A stretch of 38,173 bases of DNA, from positions 1 to 38,173 of the IMG/VR virus record IMGVR_UViG_3300032315_001907, one strand, 5' to 3'. The position numbers and the translations under genes are program-made. How positions within the stretch are numbered: the first letter of the stretch is position 1; every line of letters begins with the position of its first letter. The DNA is from a virus. Positions 1,424 through 29,011 of the stretch are shown here, in pieces. The notes under the pieces were generated by a model. It ran no database searches. It saw only the letters and a program-made list of their open reading frames with translations, and had not been told where the DNA came from.

Positions 1424-2350
1424 TTATGGTATCCATTTCGAATATTCATTAAAGTACGGCCAAAGGGTATTGGCCGTGGCACTGGTAGAGCCTATCCAAA
1501 AAAATTTGATCCAATTCAGCCCAGTGTATGGGTTGTCATAGGGTATTGAATTGGAATCAAAAAAAGTGGAGGTCATGATCGAATAGAATCCAGCATAGGT
1601 ACTACTGTAATTATTAGTACTTGAGTTGACGGATCCGTTGCTGCTCAGTGCCACTGAATTACTATTCCTGGAAATTGAAATAGCACGCGTATGGCTACCG
1701 GTGTTATCTACGGTAATGGATGGGTAACTACTTTGTGCCGTATGCACTGAATTAATGATGCCTCGGAATCCGGTGCTATTCGGTATTTTCTCTAACTCCG
1801 TACCAGCACGTTGCGAAGATGCATTGATGCTGCCAATCGTAGTGCCGAAGAAAGCCCCTGACGTAGCTTGCAAGGCTGCATTGTCCAGTACTACGCCCAA
1901 CGTCACGGCACTTTTGCTTTCAGGGCTGTACCCGAAGGTATAATACCCAAGGTATGGAGAAGATGTGTTGCGCCGAATACCGGTATTACGCTGGAATTGG
2001 ATATACGGATCCGTCTGAGCATACGTGGCGGTATTGGACGTAACCAAGGCATTGGTATTGCTTGGATTTTTCCAGTCAATACGGTTGAATGGTTCTGCCG
2101 CGTCGTGTTCGAAGCAGTACAGTTGCGATATATTTGCCCAGTGCCCATCCTGTTTCAGCGAGTCAATCAAGCGCTGCATACATCGCAAGGTGTATTCGCT
2201 GGGAAGAGCTATGCCATTATTTTTGGCTGCTGCTACAATTGCATTTACCTCTGTGCCATATACGCTTTCAGGCATCCAAAAAAGCGACTGTGCATGTGTG
2301 ATAAAGCAGAAAAGCAGAAGGCTACTTACAGATGAAATCCGTACCATCAT
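1424..2350 (-). CDS. Exported fibre-tip-like protein (308 aa)
   Basis: This ORF has an N-terminal signal peptide (hydrophobic residues 8-17, cleavage at A20|Q21). The body is Ser/Thr/Asn-rich and beta-prone, with 'FNRIDWKNPS' near residue 90 and an aromatic C-terminus with 'TLWPYFNEYSKW'. This composition fits a receptor-binding or fibre-tip protein of Bacteroidota phages, but I recognise no named domain. The start (ATGATG at 2350/2347) lies inside the last 29 bases of the 908-aa fibre gene, implying translational coupling. With that fibre and the 214-aa protein it forms three consecutive exported products. Confidence 0.72.
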   Translation of the reverse strand: MMVRISSVSSLLLFCFITHAQSLFWMPESVYGTEVNAIVAAAKNNGIALPSEYTLRCMQRLIDSLKQDGHWANISQLYCFEHDAAEPFNRIDWKNPSNTNALVTSNTATYAQTDPYIQFQRNTGIRRNTSSPYLGYYTFGYSPESKSAVTLGVVLDNAALQATSGAFFGTTIGSINASSQRAGTELEKIPNSTGFRGIINSVHTAQSSYPSITVDNTGSHTRAISISRNSNSVALSSNGSVNSSTNNYSSTYAGFYSIMTSTFFDSNSIPYDNPYTGLNWIKFFWIGSTSATANTLWPYFNEYSKWIP

Positions 2351-5048
2351 AATAGCAGGTAATTATAGTTGCAGTAGTGTAATAGCGAGTTCCCAGATTG
2401 CTTAGCGCCAAATCCTTGAAAGCTGGAGTAGTAGTGGGCCAGTTGACCTGAACCTGATTAGCCGGACCCGTAGGCGTAGGCAGATGTATTGAATATGTGC
2501 CTCCCGAAACAGGATTGCTGATCGTAACCGATGTAATAGTGGTAGTTGCCCCGCTACTGGTAGCTTGGCGAAATATCGCCACCGGCTTGCTCGATGCGTT
2601 GAAGGTTACGGCGGTGCTGCCGGATATTGCGCTGGGTGTAGCCACTGCGGTAACGGCTGTGCCTAAGTCTCCCCAGGATGGTGCCGTACCTGCTCCGTTG
2701 GTGAACAACACACGACCAGCGGTGGAAGCGGATAACTTTGCGAGGGTGGTGGTACCACTGGCATAGAGTAGGTCGCCAGTGGTGTAAGAGGAAAAATTGG
2801 TACCTCCGTTGGCAACTCCTACTACGCCCGTCACGTTGGATGCTGTGCCGATTGTATTCTGGTTCAGCGTCGGAAAATTCGTAAGGCTTGCCGCGCTGCC
2901 GTTGGGGGCCAGTACGTCTGTTCCGATCACTAAGCCCAGGTTAGTTCGAGCTGCGGAGGCTGTGATGGCACCGGTGCCGCCCTGGTTAATATTCAACGAT
3001 GCTTGACCTCCAATAGCACTGGCACTAGCCCATACTGCCACTTGACTTGTTGCTGGTGTTCCAGATACTGTCACTGTTCCTGCGGTACCACCTGTTGCAC
3101 TTAATGTTTGAGTACTTGCATTTAGCGCTAACCCATTACCAATTGCTATAGAGCGTAGATTACCGTTATCATCTACTGCTGCAATACGTGTGGCATTGAA
3201 CCCAGGAGTAGCCGCTAATGCTGCATCAGATACTCGAAAACTTCCATTGACGTGTAATTTTGCAGATGGTGAAGATGTGCCTACGCCAACATTAGACGCC
3301 ATGTAGACAGGCGAATTTGCATCGTCTAAATACATAGTATATTTATTTGTAGCAGGACTACCCCATGCAGTTGGCATGTATATACCATACGCGTTTGTGA
3401 TACTATTGGTAGCTCCAGTCGTAGGTGATAAGTATATACCGTAAGCAGTTCCAATACTATTGGCTGTACCACTGCTATTTGAGATGCCTATATTTATACC
3501 ATATGCAGTGTTTATCGTGGCACCATTTGAATTTGCTATAGTAAAAGTAGCTGCTCTTCCATCTGTAATTGTACCAGTACCAGCTGAACCTGATACACTA
3601 GCATTACCGACTAAGAACAATGCGCCTTGTGCATTTGAAACTGTACCAGAGCCTATGTTTCTAGCTACAAGGTTTACTCCGTTTAGAGTATTTAACAAGC
3701 TACTTGCTCTATGAAATGCACGTATCCTAGAACCATTGACACCTGCTGTAGATGCACCTCCATAAAGAAATGTATCAGCGCCAGTCTGCGCTGTAATAAC
3801 TATACCGTCGTATCCAAAATTATTATTAGCACCTTCTACTGGTTGCGATGTAACAGAAAGTCCTATAGCTGCGGAACTTATACTATTAGATTTAGTGTGT
3901 GTAAAACTCACAGGTCCATTTACAACCCGCATACCACTATTGACAGCGACGCCGCCGTTTACAGTTAGCATACTATCTGTTGACAATGGCGACGTGTTTA
4001 TACCTATTTTCCCATTATCTTCTGTAATAATTGAATTGCCTAATATTGAGGACGTAGTCCACTTTGGAATCTTATTTACATCGCCTGCACCTCCTACTGT
4101 ACCACTGCCTCCAGACACCGTCTCCCAAGAAACATTGGTACCATCGGTACGTAAATATTTAGTGGCATTACTAGTTTGAGATGGCAGAAGGTTATTGATA
4201 GCTCCCGAGGCCGTGGTCGCGCCGGTACCACCATTGGCAATTGCCACTGTGCCCGTCACATTGGCCGCTGTGCCTGTTGTATTCTGATTCAGCGTCGGGA
4301 AATTCGTAAGGTTCGCTGCGCTGCCGGTAGGTGCCAGTACGTCTGTACCGATCACTAAGCCCAGGTTGCTCCGAGCTCCGGAGGCTGTAGTCGCATTGGT
4401 GCCGCCATTGGCAATTGCCACTATGCCTGTCACGTTGGACGCTGTACCTGTTGTATTCTGGTTCAGCGTCGGGAAATTCGTAAGGTTCGCTGCGCTGCCG
4501 TTGGGGGCCAATACATCTGTACCGATTGCTAAGCCCAGGTTGCTCCGCGCTGCGGTGGCCGTGGTTGCCCCGGTACCCCCATTGGCAATGGCCACTGTGC
4601 CCGTCACGTTGGATGCTGTGCCGGTTGTATTCTGGTTCAGCGTCGGGAAATTCGTAAGGTTCGCCGCACTGCCATTGGGGGCAAGCACGTCCGTACCGAT
4701 TACCAAGCCCAGGTTGCTCCGCGCTCCGGAGGCTGTGGTATCTCCAGTTCCCCCCTTTGCAATAGGAATGATAGAAGCTATGTCTCGCTTCAAGTCTATC
4801 CGATTGGATAGCGAAGTAGTGTCGGAGGATATTTCGACCCAAGTGTTGCCTTGCCGGTTCCATCGGAATACTTTCTTCATTTTGATGGAGTATGCCAATT
4901 CAGATCCGGAAAGAGCTGCGTTCACGTTGGGCACGGAATCGAAATAGATTACCCCTGCCCCTTTAATGACTTGTGCGTTGGCATTGAAGAATGACGCCAA
5001 AAGCAGGAGTAAGGTCCCAAGATATTTGAGGCGAATTGGTAGGTTCAT
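2322..5048 (-). CDS. Long repeat-containing tail-fibre-like protein with signal peptide (908 aa)
   Basis: This is the largest fibre candidate. Residues 1-25 form a Sec signal peptide with A25|Q26 cleavage. Residues from about 95 carry phage-tail-repeat-like units containing 'GGTGATTASGARSNLGL', in three near-identical 58-aa copies. A further degenerate copy lies near residue 700. The middle (about residues 330-610) is Gly/Ser/Ala-rich with many 'AYGI' strands and resembles the shaft of a trimeric beta fibre. There is no recognisable S74 intramolecular-chaperone triad at the C-terminus, which ends with a cysteine two residues from the end. The ATG overlaps the stop of the 95-aa gene by ATGA. 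It is probably a receptor-binding fibre; an exported adhesin of the lysogen is the alternative. Confidence 0.82.
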   Translation of the reverse strand: MNLPIRLKYLGTLLLLLASFFNANAQVIKGAGVIYFDSVPNVNAALSGSELAYSIKMKKVFRWNRQGNTWVEISSDTTSLSNRIDLKRDIASIIPIAKGGTGDTTASGARSNLGLVIGTDVLAPNGSAANLTNFPTLNQNTTGTASNVTGTVAIANGGTGATTATAARSNLGLAIGTDVLAPNGSAANLTNFPTLNQNTTGTASNVTGIVAIANGGTNATTASGARSNLGLVIGTDVLAPTGSAANLTNFPTLNQNTTGTAANVTGTVAIANGGTGATTASGAINNLLPSQTSNATKYLRTDGTNVSWETVSGGSGTVGGAGDVNKIPKWTTSSILGNSIITEDNGKIGINTSPLSTDSMLTVNGGVAVNSGMRVVNGPVSFTHTKSNSISSAAIGLSVTSQPVEGANNNFGYDGIVITAQTGADTFLYGGASTAGVNGSRIRAFHRASSLLNTLNGVNLVARNIGSGTVSNAQGALFLVGNASVSGSAGTGTITDGRAATFTIANSNGATINTAYGINIGISNSSGTANSIGTAYGIYLSPTTGATNSITNAYGIYMPTAWGSPATNKYTMYLDDANSPVYMASNVGVGTSSPSAKLHVNGSFRVSDAALAATPGFNATRIAAVDDNGNLRSIAIGNGLALNASTQTLSATGGTAGTVTVSGTPATSQVAVWASASAIGGQASLNINQGGTGAITASAARTNLGLVIGTDVLAPNGSAASLTNFPTLNQNTIGTASNVTGVVGVANGGTNFSSYTTGDLLYASGTTTLAKLSASTAGRVLFTNGAGTAPSWGDLGTAVTAVATPSAISGSTAVTFNASSKPVAIFRQATSSGATTTITSVTISNPVSGGTYSIHLPTPTGPANQVQVNWPTTTPAFKDLALSNLGTRYYTTATIITCYYDGTDFICK
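4202..4723 (-). repeat. Three tandem 174-bp repeats inside the fibre gene
   Basis: Landmarks such as ccaggttgctccg recur at a spacing of exactly 174 bp (near 4360, 4534 and 4708), giving three nearly identical 58-codon units. A diverged copy lies at about 2804-2970. The units encode fibre-shaft repeats. Their near identity at DNA level allows unequal recombination, and so fibre-length change. Confidence 0.88.
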
Positions 5049-5334: not shown

Positions 5335-6963
5335 TTATGCGTTTAGCCAGATTTCGTCTTCTGGAGTAGCCCAGAAATTACCAGTGGACGTGAGCCATCC
5401 GGAATCGAATGTTTTGGATCCGATTGCCCTGGACACGTTTAGGCGGAAAGTGCTGAGGAAATCAATGGTATCCCAAACCTTGAATTTATCATCGAGCAAT
5501 ATCAGCGGTACGTTTTCTTCATCACTGGTATCCCACAGTCGGTTGTAGATCAGCATGACCTGCAAGGCAATGCTTTCTTTTCGGGTAATGTACCCAGTAC
5601 GATAGGTGAATATGTTCTGGTAGGATTGATAGTACTGGGTGTTTTTGGCCAGTAGACCGTTCGGCGATGTGTACACGTTGTTGGATACAAAGCGCTCTAC
5701 CTGAAGCTCTGTGGAAAAAGCCCCTATACAGGGAATAGTCTCGGGCACGCCGAAGCCATTCAGATAGATCAGATAGCGCAAGGAATAGCGCTTGGCGCGG
5801 TTTAGCCAGTAGGTCTTGACCTGGCTAAGATACTGGTTAAGGCCTACGTTCACGACCTGTACCGTGTACCCCACCACCGTATTATCATCTATGCCTAATT
5901 GGGTATATCCAACCGGTATCACCACTGTGTTTCCTGGATCCACCAGCACGCCGTTGAGCGGGTATTGGGTTGTGACCTCAGTAGTGCCGTCCTCAAATAT
6001 TTTCGTCAGCTCGATTTCTGCAATCTTGCTTGTGCTGTCGTAGTTGTACCAGGCAATGTATACTGGTTGGCTTCTCTCTATGTAGCAGGTATCCGGCATC
6101 TGCGAGATCAGGCTGTTGGTTGCGTTCAGCTCCGTGAAGAAATCGAAGCCTTCCGGCATAGTTTCCGATACCCCGCCGCGCATAGCTTTTTTGGGTTCGG
6201 TGTATTGCCAAGCCACCGACGGCATGTTTTCGAAATCCTCTCGAAACCTTATGTAGTAATTCCGGATAGTGTCGGCTATGTATAAGTCGGTCGAGTTAAA
6301 GTCAGGAACCATTTCGTTCCAATCGACCAGGTTCAATTCGCTCTCGAGAAAATCCTGGATATCAAAACTGGCGTACCCTTCGGGACCGGCTGTTTCGGAA
6401 AGACTGCCCACTTTTACGTAACCTACATCCACGCGCTCTACAAATACATCCACCAGTACTTGATGACCATCCGGCAAATTGGTAGGGCTCGCAGCGATCG
6501 TCGTGTAGGTCTTGTAGCTGCTGGAAATACTGCTGTTTTCGAATGTACCTGTAGCCTGGTCTATCGCCGTGGCAATGATGCGGATCCCTACGCCCGGTAT
6601 GTTCTCGTAACTCACTTCAAAGTGCGGGCGCACCTTGTGATGTGCATTGATGATTTCAGCCACATCGGTCCAATACGCTGAATACGTCACGTATCCGGAC
6701 GTAGCCACGGAGGGGATTTCCGTTATGGATACCGGTGTGGCCACTGCGGTAAAGGTGACTTCACTTTCCGATCCGTCTTCTTCTTCCCAGGACAAAACAA
6801 TGGTATCTCCCACCTGTAGGCTGAAATACGAGGAAGTGTTTATCCTGGCCTGTTGCGGCACCGGTCCGTATGGATTGCCAGAGGCATCCACACAGCGAAC
6901 GGTGTATATGACTGGATTCCGGCTCAAGCTGATAGCCGCCGGCTGGGTGACTAAGCTAATCAT
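5335..6963 (-). CDS. Virion structural protein, probably tail/baseplate (542 aa)
   Basis: This is a long beta-rich protein without a signal peptide. It has Ig-like, strand-rich sequence in the first 250 residues and many Tyr/Asn/Thr residues throughout. The start overlaps the 185-aa upstream gene by ATGA and the stop is 2 nt before the 95-aa gene. Its place between a terminator-like tail protein and the fibre genes suggests a baseplate or fibre-attachment subunit. No named domain is recognised, so the role is inferred from context. Confidence 0.72.
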   Translation of the reverse strand: MISLVTQPAAISLSRNPVIYTVRCVDASGNPYGPVPQQARINTSSYFSLQVGDTIVLSWEEEDGSESEVTFTAVATPVSITEIPSVATSGYVTYSAYWTDVAEIINAHHKVRPHFEVSYENIPGVGIRIIATAIDQATGTFENSSISSSYKTYTTIAASPTNLPDGHQVLVDVFVERVDVGYVKVGSLSETAGPEGYASFDIQDFLESELNLVDWNEMVPDFNSTDLYIADTIRNYYIRFREDFENMPSVAWQYTEPKKAMRGGVSETMPEGFDFFTELNATNSLISQMPDTCYIERSQPVYIAWYNYDSTSKIAEIELTKIFEDGTTEVTTQYPLNGVLVDPGNTVVIPVGYTQLGIDDNTVVGYTVQVVNVGLNQYLSQVKTYWLNRAKRYSLRYLIYLNGFGVPETIPCIGAFSTELQVERFVSNNVYTSPNGLLAKNTQYYQSYQNIFTYRTGYITRKESIALQVMLIYNRLWDTSDEENVPLILLDDKFKVWDTIDFLSTFRLNVSRAIGSKTFDSGWLTSTGNFWATPEDEIWLNA

Positions 6964-7534: not shown

Positions 7535-7570
7535 TAAAGTTGCGGTATTAGACGTGCACCTAAAAGGACA
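7535..7570 (-). promoter_or_regulatory. TGTCCTTT-type promoter-like element upstream of tail genes
   Basis: On the minus strand TGTCCTTT (7563-7570) is followed after 20 nt by CAACTTTA (7535-7542), a weak match to the Bacteroidota -7 box TAnnTTTG. It lies in the 213-nt gap between the large terminase and the 185-aa tail gene, and leaves a 17-nt leader before the ATG at 7517. The rest of that gap shows no ORF I can support. Confidence 0.5.
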
Positions 7571-15115: not shown

Positions 15116-15622
15116 CTATTTCGGGGCAGGACTGGGCGCTAAACGGAAGATGGGAAGATTTTTTTCACTGCGGAGGCGGTATGAGCCTTTTTTCAGTGCG
15201 TCAAAACTGATATCGTCGAGCAAATCTAAGTCGGCCATAAACTGGTGGATCACATCCGCTTCGCTCACGCCGTAGTTGCGCACCGCTAATATGCGCTGCA
15301 CCAACATCTCGTGGAGGTTGCGCTGAAGATAGGTATTGAAGAAGCGGATCGCCTGGGCGGATACAAAAATCTTGTTGTGCTTGAACTGCGTAATCGTGAA
15401 TGAAATCGGTACGTGGTCATTGTACTGTTCAGAAGCATCTGAGTTGGTGGCACCACTGCCGTTGAAGGTCATCTTCCCCTCCATCAGCTTGCTCATCACC
15501 ATGCACACTTCCCTATTTTCGTAGACCGTGAAATCAATGATGGTATTGTAGGGGATGTTTTCGCGCCAGTAGAAATACTTTTTGAGGTAGCGCTTCATCG
15601 GAAAGGCCATCTGCATATTCAT
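15116..15622 (-). CDS. Unknown protein between lysis and head modules (168 aa)
   Basis: A charged, mainly helical protein. The first part is basic ('MKRYLKKYFYWREN') and a helical C-terminal half contains 'NYGVSEADVIHQFMADLDL', which could be a small helix-turn-helix or helical bundle. It follows the lysis terminator and precedes the 163-aa gene. A regulatory role at this module border is possible but unsupported. The first ATG (15622) is used; ATG at 15616 or 15598 is also possible. Confidence 0.65.
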   Translation of the reverse strand: MNMQMAFPMKRYLKKYFYWRENIPYNTIIDFTVYENREVCMVMSKLMEGKMTFNGSGATNSDASEQYNDHVPISFTITQFKHNKIFVSAQAIRFFNTYLQRNLHEMLVQRILAVRNYGVSEADVIHQFMADLDLLDDISFDALKKGSYRLRSEKNLPIFRLAPSPAPK

Positions 15623-17705: not shown

Positions 17706-17933
17706 CTAACGAGGTGCTTGTACGGCCCGCTGGGCAACAGTCATATCCTCACGCAGCAGCTCTTCCCAGCGTAAGTGAGTGCTGGATATCTCAATGCGCA
17801 CCAGGTAGCGGTAGTAAAACCGATAGGCATCTACAATCGGTTCCCGGTCAATGACCACGCCAGTGTGCCCGGTCCACGGGCCACGCACAATGGATACCCG
17901 TTGTTGGAGCCGCAAAAGGTTGGGCTGCTTCAT
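17706..17933 (-). CDS. Small KOW-like protein, possible transcription/translation factor (75 aa)
   Basis: Residues 11-30 read 'QRVSIVRGPWTGHTGVVIDR', which fits the KOW motif of NusG/RfaH and ribosomal proteins (hydrophobic, Gly-Pro, aromatic, Gly, x, x, Gly, hydrophobic). The rest is a short strand plus helix. It overlaps the 87-aa upstream gene by ATGA. KOW domains bind RNA or RNA polymerase partners, so an antitermination role is conceivable given the terminator arrays in this genome. A KOW-only protein of 75 aa lacks the NGN domain that binds polymerase. Confidence 0.62.
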   Translation of the reverse strand: MKQPNLLRLQQRVSIVRGPWTGHTGVVIDREPIVDAYRFYYRYLVRIEISSTHLRWEELLREDMTVAQRAVQAPR

Positions 17934-18193
17934 TTGTCAAAGTTTAGTTTGCCCTGCTTTTCCAGCATCGCACGCTGCGCCTGGGCTTTCAGGTACATAG
18001 TGATTTCTTCGATTTCCATGCCCTCAGACTCGATTGCATCCACAAAGAGCAGGACCGCTTCGAGGTTGTCTGAAACCCGTTTCATGTGGTTGGCGCTAAT
18101 CTCCCCTTTGGCAAGCATGAGGCTCATTTTTTGTCGGTAATCCCGCACTGCATAGGTCAGATTGGCCTGAACTGACTTCTTGGATAATGCCAT
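17930..18193 (-). CDS. Small helical early protein, unknown (87 aa)
   Basis: Nearly all-helical and charged ('NLEAVLLFVDAIESEGMEIEEITMYL' region, residues 43-68), with a basic N-terminus (SKKSVQANL). It is the first gene after the iteron region. Position next to a putative origin would suit a replication or DNA-binding accessory, but no motif proves it. It overlaps the KOW-like gene by ATGA. Confidence 0.66.
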   Translation of the reverse strand: MALSKKSVQANLTYAVRDYRQKMSLMLAKGEISANHMKRVSDNLEAVLLFVDAIESEGMEIEEITMYLKAQAQRAMLEKQGKLNFDK

Positions 18194-18212: not shown

Positions 18213-18604
18213 AGAGTCCTTGTCCAATTCTGGTTTTTTAAGTGGACTTTTGGACTGCCTGGGTTAAATAATCTGATTATCAGGGTCTTATACAGTCCAA
18301 ACGGTTTGGACTGTTTGGACTGCTTTTTGGACTGTTTGGACTTTTGGACTGTTTTTATTGAAAATCGTCATAAATTGTTGATTTACAGGCAGTCCAAAAG
18401 TCCAAACGGCTTTTTTTCGGGTGGACTTTGTTATATGCTCATAAGTATTTGAAATACATACACTTACAAAAGGCAGTCCAAAAGTCCACTGCTTTTACCA
18501 AAATTTATAGTGGTCTCCTTTTCAAAAAAAGAAGAAAAAAATATATAATGTTTGGACTTGTTCGATTTTTGACACAAAATCAAACAAGTCCAAACATTAT
18601 ATAT
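18213..18604. other. Candidate replication origin: iteron-like GGACT cluster
   Basis: The 403-nt gap after the primase stop holds 9 copies of GGACT (18244, 18252, 18308, 18317, 18329, 18338, 18346, 18423, 18554) and 7 of AGTCC (18215, 18294, 18391, 18399, 18475, 18483, 18587). Twelve of these are the longer TTTGGACT/AGTCCAAA. One pair forms a perfect dyad (18293-18313). Chance predicts about one pentamer here. Interspersed AT-rich DNA and the adjacent primase-helicase favour an iteron origin; an operator array is the alternative. No ORF is supported. Confidence 0.7.
18541..18604 (-). terminator. Long palindrome/terminator at the primase stop codon
   Basis: A 22-bp perfect inverted repeat (18541-18562 with 18583-18604), one C/A mismatch, then six more pairs around the loop TGACAC. 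The primase stop TAA (18597-18599) is inside an arm. In minus RNA the stem is followed by seven T (plus-strand A at 18534-18540), as in a terminator. Each arm contains one TTTGGACT iteron. Confidence 0.8.
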
Positions 18605-21600
18605 CGGTGTTGCTGTCTATCTGACGCCACTGTATGGCGTTGGCGTCGAAGTTTTCATCGGCTACGATGAAGTACTCCTTGCCGTTGCTCTTGAGCCTCT
18701 CCCCTTTCGTGGTGGGGTTGAACTCCAACTTGGCATACTCGCAGTACCACTGTATCCTTTGCTTGATACTGCGGGCATCAATGTACTTCCGGTCGTTGGG
18801 GTACGTCTCGAGGTACTTCTCGGTGAGGAATACCTTGTTGACCTTCTGGTTCAAGAATATCCCGTTGGGTTGTGCATCGGCTTTCAAAGCGGTATCGAAT
18901 ACGATGCTCGCCCAGTCCAGGAAGTTCTCCCCCATCAACTGACGCAGCTTGCGCCGGTGCAGCTCCTCGGATACGCTGCCGAACGACAGGCCGTAGCGCA
19001 GGTAGTGCTGGATGCAGGTAGCCATCCAGTTGTAGAAGAGGTTCCACTGCTTGTAATCCCAGTCGTAGAAAAGCTGGTGCCCGAAATGGTCAGCCACCGT
19101 TCTGTGGGAGTTGAAAAAGTCGGAGAAGCTGATCTGGTATTGCCTGCGCGAGAAGCTGTTCCCGTCCCCGTTGAGGGCGTGGTTCGTGATGATAATGAAC
19201 TTGGGCGGGTCCACCGTGAATTGTGGTTGCCCTTTCTTGTTCACGGTCACGGCGGTAGTGATCTGGCTGAACAAGAACTCAAAGTTGAAGTTCACCCGCA
19301 CGTCGTCGAAAAGTATCGCGCCCGTGCGCTCATCCACGCCCTCGTAAAGGAAGCTGTCATCTTCCAGGTTCTTCTTTTTGCCGTCAATGATGGCGACCGG
19401 AAAGAGATGCTGGAACTGTTTCCCCCAGATAGACTTCCCGGTGCCGCCCTGGGACTTCCCTACTTCGCTCTCGATACCATCCATGGCCACGACGGCTTTC
19501 ATCATACCATAGTCGCGGTAGTCGTGGGCGACGTACCCAGTGGCCAGCATTTTGCAGAGCATTCCGTGCCATAGCTCCTGCGTCTCTGCCGGGGTGTAAG
19601 GCTTTGGGTTCTGCATGGGAACCCACCACTTGCGCCCTTCATCCTCTACCAGCACGTATTGCTTCTGCCAGTGGAAGTCAGAGGTGCAAAGGAAGAAGTC
19701 GAGCATGTTGCATTCCCGAGCTTTCTCGTGAAAGCTCACCTGCCAGGCGTCGTTCTGGCGCTCGAAGTTACAAAGGGGCCCGATCAGCTCGGGCTCAAAG
19801 GCTATCATGCCTTTTTCCCAGACGTGCGCCGGCAGCTCGCTGAGGGGTCCTGATGTGATGCTGTCTTTTGTTATCTTCCAGTATCCGTTCTGGAAGTATA
19901 AGTACATCGCGTCCTTGTGGCTCTTGTTGAACTCTACCCTCCGGATGGGCAGGGAGGAAAGGTTGTCGGGACCCAGGTACTGCTTAGCCCCCCGGTGCAG
20001 GACCTCCAGCACATCGCGCTCCCCTATTTCCCGGGTGAAGTCTATGACGTAGCGGCGTACATTCTGCGGAGTGGTCTCGTACACGACCTTGTCCTGGATG
20101 TGTACGAATCGGAACGCGTTTTTGCTGTACTCATACAGCCCAAAGCCCCGGTTGTAGAGGAACTGCAACGCGTTTTCGTACAAGTACGTGATGCGCTCCA
20201 TCGGCTTGCCCGACTTGTCTTCCCACTTCTCTATCTTCCAGAATTGCTCATGCGGCAGGATCGGTTGCGCCAGCTCGAACTCGTCGCTTTCCGTGTTGTA
20301 GCGGCGCTGTATGTTGTCTATCTGGAACTCGCGCAAGCTCTTGAGCTTTTCCCGGTGGCGCTCCAGGAAGGCCGGCGTGGAATGAAGCGCCCAGTACTCC
20401 TTGAGCTTATAGGAGCTCATCTCTGTGATGTCGTGACACATCACGTGTTGCCCCTTCCCTTCCCGATCTATCATGGCCGAGTTGAAATCAGCGACCAGGG
20501 CTTGTTCTTGCTCCTCGGTCTGGAACTGGTACACGATTAGGTCATCAATGCCCTTGTACATTGCCTCCTGGTGGTAGGCGAAGTAGATGCGCAGGTCAAT
20601 GCCTACATTGTGGTAGCCGTAGAAGTAGTCCCGGAACTTGAGCACCGCTTTGAAGAAGGTCTTTGGCCGGAGGTCCACCGGCTTGTTGCCTTTCATGCTT
20701 ATTTCCTGCCAATCGGCGTCGAGGACGAACACAACCCTCTTGACCTTGCAGCGCTGCACGATCAGCTCGAGCTGGTGAGGCATGGAGCCGCCCGCGCTCC
20801 AGTTGTGTATGCCCATAATGCCTACGGCTGGCAGACCGGTAAGGCAAAGTTTGTCGGCCTTCTTTTCGCCCTCCGTTATGTAGAGGGTATCAAATTCCTG
20901 GTGTTGCTTCCATGCGGAGATTATCCAGTTGGGAATCCAAAGGTGGGACCCACTCCCCTTGGGCGACTGGTACTTTATATCGTTGCCGGCTTTGTCGCGG
21001 TGGTTGGCCGGGTTGCTCCAGCGCACACGGATAAGGGGCTTTGCAGTGCCCCGGTCGTTGATGTACTTCATCGTGGACCCATCGAGGTCCACGTAGTGCA
21101 ACACCATATCATCGCCCGGCTGTACCGACCAGGACTGATCTATAGTGCCTGCCTGGTAGCGGTCCACCTGTACGGAGGTGGAATCGTCTTCGGCCAGGTA
21201 TATTTTTTGGTAAGAGTCGGATATGCCTGAAAGGCGGAGCTGCATGTCGCGGAAGCTCTCCTTGCCCTTTCTCTGCGGTTGGCTTGCCTGAGCCTGGGTA
21301 GCCTGGCGGCTAATGTCTATGCTATATTTATCTGCGATGTATACCAGGGCTTCCTTGTAGGTCTTCCCCTCGATATTAGTCAGATAAGCGATTGCATCCG
21401 TGGCGTACTTGGAGCAGGCGAAGCACTTGACGATCTTCTTGCTGGGCGTCCAGGTCAGTTTCTTGGATCCGCAGTGGTGGCACTCCCCTATCTGGGATAC
21501 GCCTTGCGGTTTGAGATCGGTGAAGTCCTTCAAGACCGACTCCAGAACAGCACCCTGTGCTGCCTGGGCCTTGATGGCATCCACTATTTCTGGGTCAATG

Positions 21601-21617
21601 TAGTGTGCATCTATCAT
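18597..21617 (-). CDS. Primase-helicase with zinc finger, Toprim and SF3-like ATPase (1006 aa)
   Basis: This is the replication initiator of the phage. The N-terminus has a CHC2-type zinc-binding site (C46-x2-C49 ... C65-x2-C68). A Toprim-like domain shows 'YITEGEKKADK' (residues 246-256) and 'VFVLDADW' (296-303), the catalytic Glu and Asp-x-Asp. The C-terminal ATPase has Walker A GGTGKS (724-729), Walker B 'ILFDDV' (768-773) and the sensor-like 'FIIITNHAL'. This fits the D5/phage primase-helicase group. I see no DNA polymerase, so host polymerase is presumably used. A TGTCCTTT-type element lies 49 nt upstream, and the iteron cluster follows the stop. Confidence 0.92.
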   Translation of the reverse strand: MIDAHYIDPEIVDAIKAQAAQGAVLESVLKDFTDLKPQGVSQIGECHHCGSKKLTWTPSKKIVKCFACSKYATDAIAYLTNIEGKTYKEALVYIADKYSIDISRQATQAQASQPQRKGKESFRDMQLRLSGISDSYQKIYLAEDDSTSVQVDRYQAGTIDQSWSVQPGDDMVLHYVDLDGSTMKYINDRGTAKPLIRVRWSNPANHRDKAGNDIKYQSPKGSGSHLWIPNWIISAWKQHQEFDTLYITEGEKKADKLCLTGLPAVGIMGIHNWSAGGSMPHQLELIVQRCKVKRVVFVLDADWQEISMKGNKPVDLRPKTFFKAVLKFRDYFYGYHNVGIDLRIYFAYHQEAMYKGIDDLIVYQFQTEEQEQALVADFNSAMIDREGKGQHVMCHDITEMSSYKLKEYWALHSTPAFLERHREKLKSLREFQIDNIQRRYNTESDEFELAQPILPHEQFWKIEKWEDKSGKPMERITYLYENALQFLYNRGFGLYEYSKNAFRFVHIQDKVVYETTPQNVRRYVIDFTREIGERDVLEVLHRGAKQYLGPDNLSSLPIRRVEFNKSHKDAMYLYFQNGYWKITKDSITSGPLSELPAHVWEKGMIAFEPELIGPLCNFERQNDAWQVSFHEKARECNMLDFFLCTSDFHWQKQYVLVEDEGRKWWVPMQNPKPYTPAETQELWHGMLCKMLATGYVAHDYRDYGMMKAVVAMDGIESEVGKSQGGTGKSIWGKQFQHLFPVAIIDGKKKNLEDDSFLYEGVDERTGAILFDDVRVNFNFEFLFSQITTAVTVNKKGQPQFTVDPPKFIIITNHALNGDGNSFSRRQYQISFSDFFNSHRTVADHFGHQLFYDWDYKQWNLFYNWMATCIQHYLRYGLSFGSVSEELHRRKLRQLMGENFLDWASIVFDTALKADAQPNGIFLNQKVNKVFLTEKYLETYPNDRKYIDARSIKQRIQWYCEYAKLEFNPTTKGERLKSNGKEYFIVADENFDANAIQWRQIDSNTDI

Positions 21618-26957: not shown

Positions 26958-27281
26958 TTAGAATAATTTACCAAGATTGGCTAATGTTTGTATGTCTTTT
27001 TTTGCGTATGCTGTGTCGCAGGTTTGTGCATCGCCTGGTATTCCGTCGTGCACAATAGTCCATAAAATTCGATCTCGCTCATCTGCCCAAAATAGTATAT
27101 AATCTGTATCATCCCATTTTAGCCTATCGGGTGCTATAAGCTGATCATCCTGCTCGTATCCGGTCGTAAAGTCCCACCCTAAATCTTCCAAATCTTTTGG
27201 ATTAGCCTTCGCCCTAAAATATGAGTTTATGGTAGATTTAGGGTTTGGCTTTGCGATTTCGGCTTTTATATATTCTGGCAT
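26958..27281 (-). CDS. Small acidic protein overlapping the methyltransferase, unknown (107 aa)
   Basis: It overlaps the end of the methyltransferase gene by 16 nt, so it is translated with it. It contains aromatic/acidic sequence: 'LEDLGWDFTTGYEQDD', then 'WDDTDYILFWADERDRIL' and 'TCDTAYAKKDIQTLANLGKL'. It has no PD-(D/E)xK or HNH pattern, so it is not a visible restriction enzyme. Its stop is 12 nt before the 62-aa gene. Function unknown; coupling suggests it works with the methyltransferase or protects against host systems. Confidence 0.65.
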   Translation of the reverse strand: MPEYIKAEIAKPNPKSTINSYFRAKANPKDLEDLGWDFTTGYEQDDQLIAPDRLKWDDTDYILFWADERDRILWTIVHDGIPGDAQTCDTAYAKKDIQTLANLGKLF

Positions 27282-28513
27282 ATCATTTCCCTAATTTTTT
27301 CTGCAATTTTTTGAGCCATCAGTGGGGGTACGGCATTGCCTATTTGTTTAAAGGCGGCCGTCCTACTTCCTTCAAAGAAATAATCATCAGGGAAAGATTG
27401 TATTCTTGCAGCTTCTCTTACACTTATTGAACGATTTTGTTTTTTATCTGGATGGATGTAATAATGACCGTCCATTGCAATATGAGCAACAACGGTATGC
27501 GAAACACCTTTGCCATTTACAACTTGAAAACGATTTACAAATGAATCTGTATTTGAATGTTTGATTAGTCTTTTTGGCAATTCTGCATAATTCAATCTTT
27601 TGCCATTGTTCCATTGCTCTATTGCAATTTGATATATTTCCAAGTCATTATCGTTGTTAGGTCTTGAGATATGTTGTGTTACAAACTCTAAACCATTTCT
27701 AATATTTGTTTGCTTTAAATATTCAGTTGTCGGTTTTGCATATTCTACTGCGTTTAGAGTTCCTTGTCCATTTTTTAATGGCTTCAAATCAGAAAACAAA
27801 TCTTTTAAAATTTGAAAGTTATGTTCTGATGTCTCAAATTCAGGATACTTTAAGTTTAACTCTTTTTTCCAGCCAATGATGATTACTCTTTTTCTTTCTT
27901 GTAAAACACCAAAATCTTTTGCGTTTAAATGATTTTTTGGAGGAATCGCAACTTCATAACCAGCGTTTCTAACAGCCTTGAAAATTTTGCTTAAATACTC
28001 TCCGTTTTTTGCAGATAAAATGCCCGGTACATTTTCAAACACAAACATCTTTGGTTTGTACTTTTCTAGAAACTTGACATAATGTTTGTATAAATGATTA
28101 CGAGGGTCGCTTTCCATATCTTTTCTAGCACGACCAACAACAGAATAAGCCTGACAAGGCGGACCACCAATAATTAAATCAACTTTTTTCCCGTTCAACT
28201 CTTTGTCAATTGTCTTGAAAATTTCGGGCAATGTTTTTTCTGAAATTTCTTTGTTTATGACTGAATTGATTAAATGTTCGGGAACATTTTTCCAAAGCTC
28301 TTCTTTGCTTTTATTCTCTGATTTTAGATAATCATAATAGATTCTGCTTTTCTTATTTTCTTTCAACCAGTGGTAAACTGTTCTTGTTTTAATAGTGTCA
28401 CAAGCATCTTTATTCATTTCTACGTGTACAATAGGTTTAAATCCTGCACGTATAAACCCTTCAGAAAGCCCTCCAGCACCAGCGAATAAATCTATGTAGT
28501 TTAATTCCTTCAT
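27266..28513 (-). CDS. DNA (cytosine-5) methyltransferase (415 aa)
   Basis: All classical motifs are visible: I 'DLFAGAGGLSEGF' (residues 8-20), IV 'GGPPCQAYS' with catalytic Cys120 (116-124), VI 'FENVPG' (159-164), VIII 'QERKRVIIIG' (about 205-214), IX 'REAARIQSFPDDYF' and X 'QIGNAVPPLMA' near the C-terminus. It transfers a methyl group from S-adenosylmethionine to C5 of cytosine in a specific site; the target-recognition region (about 220-330) does not reveal that site. No restriction nuclease is present, so it is an orphan, probably protecting the phage from host restriction. The DNA is visibly more AT-rich than the rest, a sign of acquisition. Confidence 0.95.
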   Translation of the reverse strand: MKELNYIDLFAGAGGLSEGFIRAGFKPIVHVEMNKDACDTIKTRTVYHWLKENKKSRIYYDYLKSENKSKEELWKNVPEHLINSVINKEISEKTLPEIFKTIDKELNGKKVDLIIGGPPCQAYSVVGRARKDMESDPRNHLYKHYVKFLEKYKPKMFVFENVPGILSAKNGEYLSKIFKAVRNAGYEVAIPPKNHLNAKDFGVLQERKRVIIIGWKKELNLKYPEFETSEHNFQILKDLFSDLKPLKNGQGTLNAVEYAKPTTEYLKQTNIRNGLEFVTQHISRPNNDNDLEIYQIAIEQWNNGKRLNYAELPKRLIKHSNTDSFVNRFQVVNGKGVSHTVVAHIAMDGHYYIHPDKKQNRSISVREAARIQSFPDDYFFEGSRTAAFKQIGNAVPPLMAQKIAEKIREMICQNI

Positions 28514-28873
28514 ATTTGATTTACAGATTTATTGTTTTTAGTTTCTTTCAATTGAAATTCAAAATCCAAAAACCAAGAAAATTTTGATAAATAGCATACT
28601 ACTAAACCTTTTCAAAAAAGTATAGAGAAAGCTAAATATTGGGTGTGAACAAAAAACATCAATGCTCTCCCCGCACTTACGCAAATTTAGCGATTTATAC
28701 GCTGCCTGCGGCCTTGGAGTCGTAAAAAATATCTGGCTGATCACTTGCCTGATTCCCTTGGCCCGAACGGCCAACCTCAAAACCGCCGGAAAGAACAAGC
28801 TCCCCCTGGCTCTTTTTGCCACGGCCTACTCTTGTCCATACGCAAAGGGTGGAAACGGCGCGATCTTACCCCA
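28514..28873. other. Gene-poor 360-nt gap upstream of the methyltransferase
   Basis: I see no supportable gene. Composition changes from AT-rich (28514-28680) to more GC-rich (28690 on), marking the cargo border. On the minus strand TAAATTTG (28682-28689) is a good -7 box, but it has no clear -33 partner and lies 170 nt from the methyltransferase ATG. ORFs on both strands here overlap and have no family signal. Confidence 0.6.
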
Positions 28874-29011
28874 CTAAACCGATACAAGGACGGCTCCCAC
28901 TGCCGTGAAGTCTCCATCTTCCGAGACGGCCTTGCCATCCTGACCACCAAATGCCGCGATTTCCTCAGTTTTATCCAGTACATCCTGGCCTTCTTTTCTG
29001 CCAAAAACCAT
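28874..29011 (-). CDS. Possible 45-aa protein after the truncated deaminase
   Basis: An ATG at 29011 opens a 45-codon frame, different from that of the truncated deaminase. Its protein-like sequence includes 'DVLDKTEEIAAFGGQDGKAV' and ends 'FTAVGAVLVSV'. It could be a small gene or the shifted continuation of a damaged one. It does not resemble the missing C-terminal half of a dCTP deaminase. Low confidence. Confidence 0.35.
   Translation of the reverse strand: MVFGRKEGQDVLDKTEEIAAFGGQDGKAVSEDGDFTAVGAVLVSV

Follow-up and report, generated by a model that had tools for sequence, protein, structure and literature searches.

A probable iteron-type replication origin behind the primase-helicase gene of a Bacteroidota-type temperate phage, putatively recognised by the primase C-terminus

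The question raised by this locus was whether a dense array of short repeated words, placed in the gap behind the primase-helicase gene of a phage genome, represents a replication origin, and which protein would read it. The window, i.e., the whole stretch of DNA that was analysed, corresponded to the IMG/VR virus record IMGVR_UViG_3300032315_001907, with 38,173 bp. It is a temperate phage of Bacteroidota type, harboring integrase, capsid, portal-like, tape-measure and terminase-type genes; these names came from reading, with the integrase, the methylase and the primase recognised via Pfam. On the minus strand, the primase-helicase gene (18597–21617; 1006 aa) encodes the proposed initiator, an 87-aa gene without family match (17930–18193) lies directly downstream of the cluster, and gene R (15116–15622; 168 aa) belongs to a conserved family heading the structural operon. 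Neither R nor the 87-aa protein presented matches in Pfam or PHROGs. Elsewhere in the window, positions 27000–29000 comprised a low-GC island (0.36–0.39) with a C-5 cytosine methyltransferase, probably a recent acquisition, and positions 2322–5048 encoded a long tail-fibre-like protein with repeated NGSAANLTNFPTLNQNTTGTASNVTG segments.

The cluster extends over both strands from 18213 to 18596 and occupies the intergenic region that separates the primase-helicase stop from the 87-aa gene start. The first-pass annotation had placed it in a non-coding gap just after the primase-helicase gene, which is correct except that positions 18597–18600 are the last four bases of the primase gene itself. 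It had also counted 16 copies of GGACT/AGTCC within about 380 bp, twelve of them in an extended form, and both counts were reproduced: all 16 sites were found, in both orientations, between 18215 and 18591, in 388 bp, and 12 of the 16 read TTTGGACT/AGTCCAAA. In the whole window, these extended words occurred 13 times against 1.3 expected. The densest 388-bp stretch held 16 sites, whereas the maximum in 300 Markov-1 simulated windows was six, and for 2000 sequences matched to the cluster in dinucleotide composition, the mean was 0.49 sites and the maximum four. In repeat score, no other short-repeat cluster of the window came close (39.3; next 17.2). The claim of AT-rich DNA was likewise borne out (0.66 against 0.50 for the window), and Rfam gave no match.

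The spacing between sites, described earlier as an irregular 8–12 bp, turned out to include four pairs exactly 8 bp apart (18244/52, 18338/46, 18391/99 and 18475/83), and the iteron blocks were 42, 45 and 52 bp apart, start to start, with AT-rich spacers of roughly 35–46 bp between them. An outer tandem pair TGGACTTTTGGACTG on the plus strand (18243–18257), with cores 8 bp apart and pointing inward, is followed by an AT-rich spacer containing TGATTATCAG (18258–18292); the same pair was found at one outer end of the cluster in the relatives L277, L268, L261 and L071, and similar TGATAATCAG/GATTATCAG sequences were found in L277, L261 and L356. The central block (18292–18350) comprises a dyad and five plus-strand sites. 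This dyad had been reported as a perfect 9-3-9 (18293–18313); it is indeed perfect but longer, forming an 11-1-11 at 18292–18314. Then come a second AT-rich spacer (18351–18389), an inner tandem pair CAGTCCAAAAGTCCAAAC on the minus strand accompanied by a single plus-strand site at 18423 (18390–18428), a third AT-rich spacer (18429–18473), and the second outer tandem pair (CAGTCCAAAAGTCCA; 18474–18488, minus strand), which points inward from the primase side. In this way, iteron sets flank AT-rich regions.

Ahead of this last pair on the primase strand, an A/T-tract leader (18489–18540, minus strand) resembled the 'T-tract ... GACTAYY.TAAAAAA ... AAAAA' leaders of distant relatives, a likeness that was judged by eye and unscored, since the automatic left-pair finder was misled by chance pairs at many loci. 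The last two sites (18554 and 18587) fall in the stem of a 29-bp hairpin that overlaps the primase stop (18541–18604, minus strand; RNA fold z = -11). Since a T-run comes next on the primase strand, this hairpin likely doubles as the terminator of the primase transcript. The first site, at 18215, is found without the TTT context and may be background.

The earlier suggestion that one protein could read both the iterons and the TGTCCTTT boxes was not sustained, as the boxes share only GGAC with the iterons and resemble promoter elements. Five such boxes were located, at window positions 7563, 15051, 17051, 21666 and 35477, all on the gene strand, and for several of them an AACTTT/TAAATTTG-like sequence followed about 20 bp downstream, close to a gene start. 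From this placement, the TGTCCTTT boxes probably serve as a promoter element of the phage and not as iterons.

A search for the cluster downstream of homologous primases had been proposed, and equivalent clusters recur there. Scans of viral and genome collections with TTTGGACT-N-TTTGGACT returned mostly chance matches and GGACTTT minisatellites; the word TGGACTTTTGGACTG was a far more selective query and recovered the same cluster type in L261, L268, L277, L265 and L071. Primase homologues were present in L268, L265 and L071 (48, 37 and 53% identity, respectively, in the matched part only), and structural homologues in L261 and L264. Tandem GGACTTT-type arrays of 7 or 8 bp, unrelated to the phage cluster, were observed in L066, L172, L176, L234, L194 and L189, on contigs of Verrucomicrobia, Lentisphaerae, Planctomycetota and Bacteroidota. 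A single-sequence search of viral contigs with the window primase gave no matches and an alignment was required; the resulting primase profile (A1) retrieved 80 loci, including a few near-duplicates. With a motif-blind 8-mer scan, most of the 81 homologous primases proved to have an intergenic cluster downstream, and among 15 primase loci taken from bacterial genomes, several of them short fragments, a clear cluster was found within 9 kb in about eight. The Persicobacter plasmid CP012858 was discarded as a further example, its best cluster not being behind its primase match.

The words varied among these phages, with GGAC, GTAC, GTGC or GAAC in a T-[TCA]-GNNC context, or TGTACTG, GTGTGCT and CAGAACTG, and more distant primases were accompanied by still other words; in MT835542 and BT-TP2, clusters at the equivalent place carried GTAC/GTGC and TTTGTAAC, respectively. 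The inspected relatives shared a layout of outer pair, AT spacer, central block, AT spacer and inverted outer pair, with inward-facing tandem pairs 8 bp apart, AT-rich spacers of 35–46 bp and a central mixed block. The AT fraction rose from 0.57 to 0.69 at the cluster (mean over 55 relatives). The cluster was directly 3′ of the primase gene in the window, L071, L286, L484 and the plasmids pSR14 and pSR31, and in many relatives it was 0.5–6 kb downstream of the primase, immediately upstream of R. The iteron-origin design claimed for the region thus agrees with blocks and AT-rich spacers behind the primase-helicase, in a cluster that recurs in relatives.

As to which protein the word follows, the sequence comparisons indicate that it tracks the primase, not the adjacent late operon. 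Motif distance correlated most strongly with the distance between primase C-termini (rho 0.52; partial on the helicase 0.26, p 0.001) and weakly with that between R proteins (rho 0.27; given the C-terminus 0.09, p 0.07). This comparison covered about 62 non-duplicate loci with a usable region, some regions being hand-chosen, and 14 loci with no clear cluster were set aside. The motif distance is noisy: L342 and L328 scored 0.55 despite nearly identical primases, both being mainly GTAC.

In a linkage test, 77 loci were fetched via R similarity, so that R was held constant as the partner; an alignment of all 12 R-family rows was too diverse for searching. Under constant R, class A primases were accompanied by T[TCA]G(GA/AA/TA/TG)C clusters with 6–22 sites per 660 bp, about two being expected; BT-TP2-type primases by TTTGTAAC clusters, with 0–2 class A-type sites; and a third, DnaG-like class of about 1000–1430 aa (with a 1323-aa example run in Pfam) by CTGTTGGA/TGTAGGAC words. 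VapE-type helicases linked to R had the words GTAGTAGG/GTGGTAGG/CTTACAAC. L375 was an exception, in which the third-class protein was present and no strong cluster was found just upstream of R. Several R loci without a detected primase-helicase (e.g., L379, L383, L393 and L403) had no cluster. The converse case was represented by L353 against L346/L354, in which R is unrelated, the word is the same (motif distances 0.26–0.28) and the primases are alike. Replicase classes with their own words next to R were spread over loci L369–L439. R homologues, found in L283–L440, form a widespread family heading the structural operon, annotated as 'transcriptional regulator' in BT-TP2. A reverse transcriptase (RVT_1) was noticed near R at 5455–6642 of L383.

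These data bear on the possibility of an operator array controlling the late (lysis and structural) operon, with R, the 87-aa protein or a similar regulator as its binding partner. Such an array would suit a cluster that lies immediately upstream of late genes, in most relatives directly upstream of R, within AT-rich DNA and with promoter-like hexamers nearby. Nevertheless, the motif changes with the replicase class under constant R and stays similar in cases with unrelated R, knowledge of R contributes little beyond that of the primase C-terminus, and in the window a long distance separates R from the cluster, which makes this explanation unlikely.

A natural swap was identified in pSR14 and pSR31, circular Salinibacter ruber plasmids (14.9 and 31.6 kb) that encode ParA and a terminase, whose primase-helicases are about 95% identical. 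In 60-residue blocks, 50–58 of 60 residues were identical along the N-terminal 300 residues, 58–60 of 60 between residues 300 and 720, and 43 of 53 in the last block, the substitutions being mostly in the N-terminal 300 and the last ~25 residues. The clusters directly behind these primases, which are the top-scoring repeat clusters of both plasmids, use the word GGTCCA in one plasmid and TGTCAC in the other, switched at eight of nine homologous positions, and neither cluster contains the other's word. Given the N-terminal changes, the C-terminus is not the sole specificity candidate from that pair alone. Taken with the co-variation described above, the swap is indirect evidence suggesting that the iteron sequence is specific to its cognate initiator.

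The words could also be bound by the primase in a site that is a copy-number, incompatibility or accessory element, with initiation elsewhere. Phage P4 has, separate from ori, an accessory crr element with iterons. Two iteron copies of the window sit in the terminator, and GC skew, proposed earlier as a check for an origin, displayed no origin-type sign change (mean +0.037 upstream and +0.011 downstream; 58 loci). A sign change of GC skew is not required of origins in small phages. Since there is no second comparable cluster in the window and the top-scoring cluster occupies the same position in pSR14 and pSR31, an accessory role appears improbable. A packaging (pac/cos) or partition site built of repeats would be conceivable in a phage genome, as partition sites also use repeats and the Salinibacter plasmids encode terminase and ParA, but it is very unlikely, since the motif tracks the primase and not the terminase, whose genes are about 9–10 kb from the cluster in the window. 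Finally, a minisatellite that expanded neutrally, resembling the (GGACTTT)n heptamer arrays of Verrucomicrobia, Lentisphaerae and others (L066, L172, L176 and L234), is hardly credible for sites in both orientations with fixed 8-bp pairs, in a layout conserved with switched words across divergent phages and with concerted change at homologous positions.

The remaining evidence for an origin read by the primase-helicase came from the protein. Pfam recognised CHC2 (zinc finger), DUF3854 and DUF5906 (SF3 helicase) in the window primase, DUF5906 slightly below the cutoff. In AlphaFold2 predictions, both the full-length primase (pLDDT 87) and its isolated C-terminus (pLDDT 86) contained a winged helix, with a predicted helix-helix-helix-strand-strand fold of high pLDDT at about residues 925–986 (18660–18845, minus strand) and the wing R974-L-K-S-N978-G. 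The whole model matched in Foldseek the SaPI5 primase-helicase (7ola and 7om0, among the best), the ASFV PrimPol and poxvirus D5/E5; as modelled, the candidate initiator is an SF3 (D5-type) helicase fused to a primase. The isolated C-terminus had weak Foldseek matches to winged-helix regulators (best E 0.07) and aligned with the RFX-DNA complex 1dp7 (Z 5.4 over 65 residues), the wHTH/RFX matches being modest (Z 5–6). The P4 origin-binding domain was absent among the structural matches listed for the window protein, which is no evidence against a likeness.

A relation between wing residue 978 and the base after the GNNC core was noticed post hoc: N accompanied T, with a mean T fraction of 0.68 (n = 15), and G accompanied a purine, with a mean T fraction of 0.19 (n = 39). 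With a tree built without the C-terminus, five independent contrasts were obtained; four to five of them agreed with the rule and none contradicted it (p 0.0625, the minimum attainable, as five contrasts cannot reach 0.05 in a phylogeny-corrected test). A prediction was written down before the 15 primase loci were fetched from bacterial genomes; its expectation of a clear cluster within 9 kb of every primase failed, as about eight of the 15 had one. The three new N loci all fitted (T 0.75–1.0), as did the G loci L473, L474 and L483, with at least eight sites (0.18, 0.12 and 0.46). L471, also a G locus with at least eight sites, misfitted (0.62), although the stretch may not be its origin, and so did the G locus L479 (0.67), with six sites, the clusters of both being weak; L476, L478 and L482 had too few sites for scoring. 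In addition, R-x-K at residues 974–976 accompanied GGAC, also in two of two new genomes, L483 and L484, the real GGAC cluster of the latter being missed by the densest-window rule and caught by the 8-mer scan. The wing rule thus agreed with the majority of the informative new loci, with exceptions, and is supported, not proven.

The general mechanism, in which the C-terminal domain of an SF3 primase-helicase reads iterons behind its own gene, is already known. The C-termini of SaPI Rep and SCCmec Cch2 bind iterons behind their own genes (PMC7581432), and in PICI origins an AT-rich region is flanked by two sets of iterons (PMC6092414). SaPI/PICI Rep (Pri-Rep) combines a self-loading SF3-type helicase with a C-terminal origin-binding domain (PMC6092414, PMC7581432), a domain that is predicted in the window protein, and its origin similarly has iterons and AT-rich DNA directly 3′ of the gene. 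In contrast, the window system has no close sequence relative there, is found in tailed phages of Bacteroidota-type hosts, and presents shorter 4–5 bp cores in 8-bp pairs with two or three AT spacers, and many of its relatives have clusters kilobases from the gene. The alpha protein of phage P4 likewise joins primase, SF3 helicase and a winged-helix origin-binding domain reading short iterons (the domain is cited in PMC10516667), although the P4 sequence and iterons are unlike those of the window. In SCCmec, the C-terminal domain of Cch2 binds iterons of 5 nt that lie just past its gene and that the helicase requires (PMC7581432), but the primase-polymerase is separate and there are three iterons only. 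In the PLE satellites of Vibrio cholerae, the DNA-binding domain of RepA and the origin iterons co-vary and have been swapped (PMC8263062), with the difference that RepA is a RepA_N initiator, not an SF3 primase-helicase, and reads semi-palindromic iterons of about 30 bp. The remark of the first-pass annotation that no initiator family with this site was known holds for the word GGACT in the literature searched, but not for the general type, of which SaPI/PICI, SCCmec and phage P4 provide examples.

The best explanation of the cluster is a P4-alpha/SaPI-Rep-type iteron origin, putatively bound by the primase C-terminus, and it is probable, from co-variation, structure models and analogy, that it acts as a replication origin with the primase-helicase as initiator through its C-terminal winged helix. 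By the precedent of SaPI Rep and the PICI origins, the primase-helicase most likely binds the words and starts replication. Several observations weigh against this reading: GC skew lends it no support, the cluster of many relatives lies kilobases away from the primase and next to R, some homologues had no clear cluster, the wing rule was formulated post hoc, and the isolated C-terminus had weak Foldseek matches. In such a mechanism, the winged helix would recognise the short words (core GGAC, then T) on both strands, SF3 helicase copies would be loaded at the central block and at both inward-facing tandem pairs, melting would occur in the AT-rich spacers, and the same primase-helicase would unwind and prime.

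In the open-licence full texts searched, no description was found of this family, its layout or its repeated word switching, nor any account of where these abundant phages of the gut and the environment begin replication. A broader proposal, advanced tentatively at slightly under an even chance, is that P4/SaPI-like origins are shared by a widespread class of temperate Bacteroidota phages, with a word that switches repeatedly in a constant layout. Specificity would then depend mostly on a small number of wing residues, with 978 governing the base that follows the core and R-x-K at 974–976 governing GGAC, so that origin specificity could be predicted from the protein. If the origin reading is right, the cluster would mark the origin in many unannotated genomes, would explain which phages and plasmids could interfere with each other's replication, and would offer natural swap pairs for studying the joint specificity change of an SF3 initiator and its iterons.
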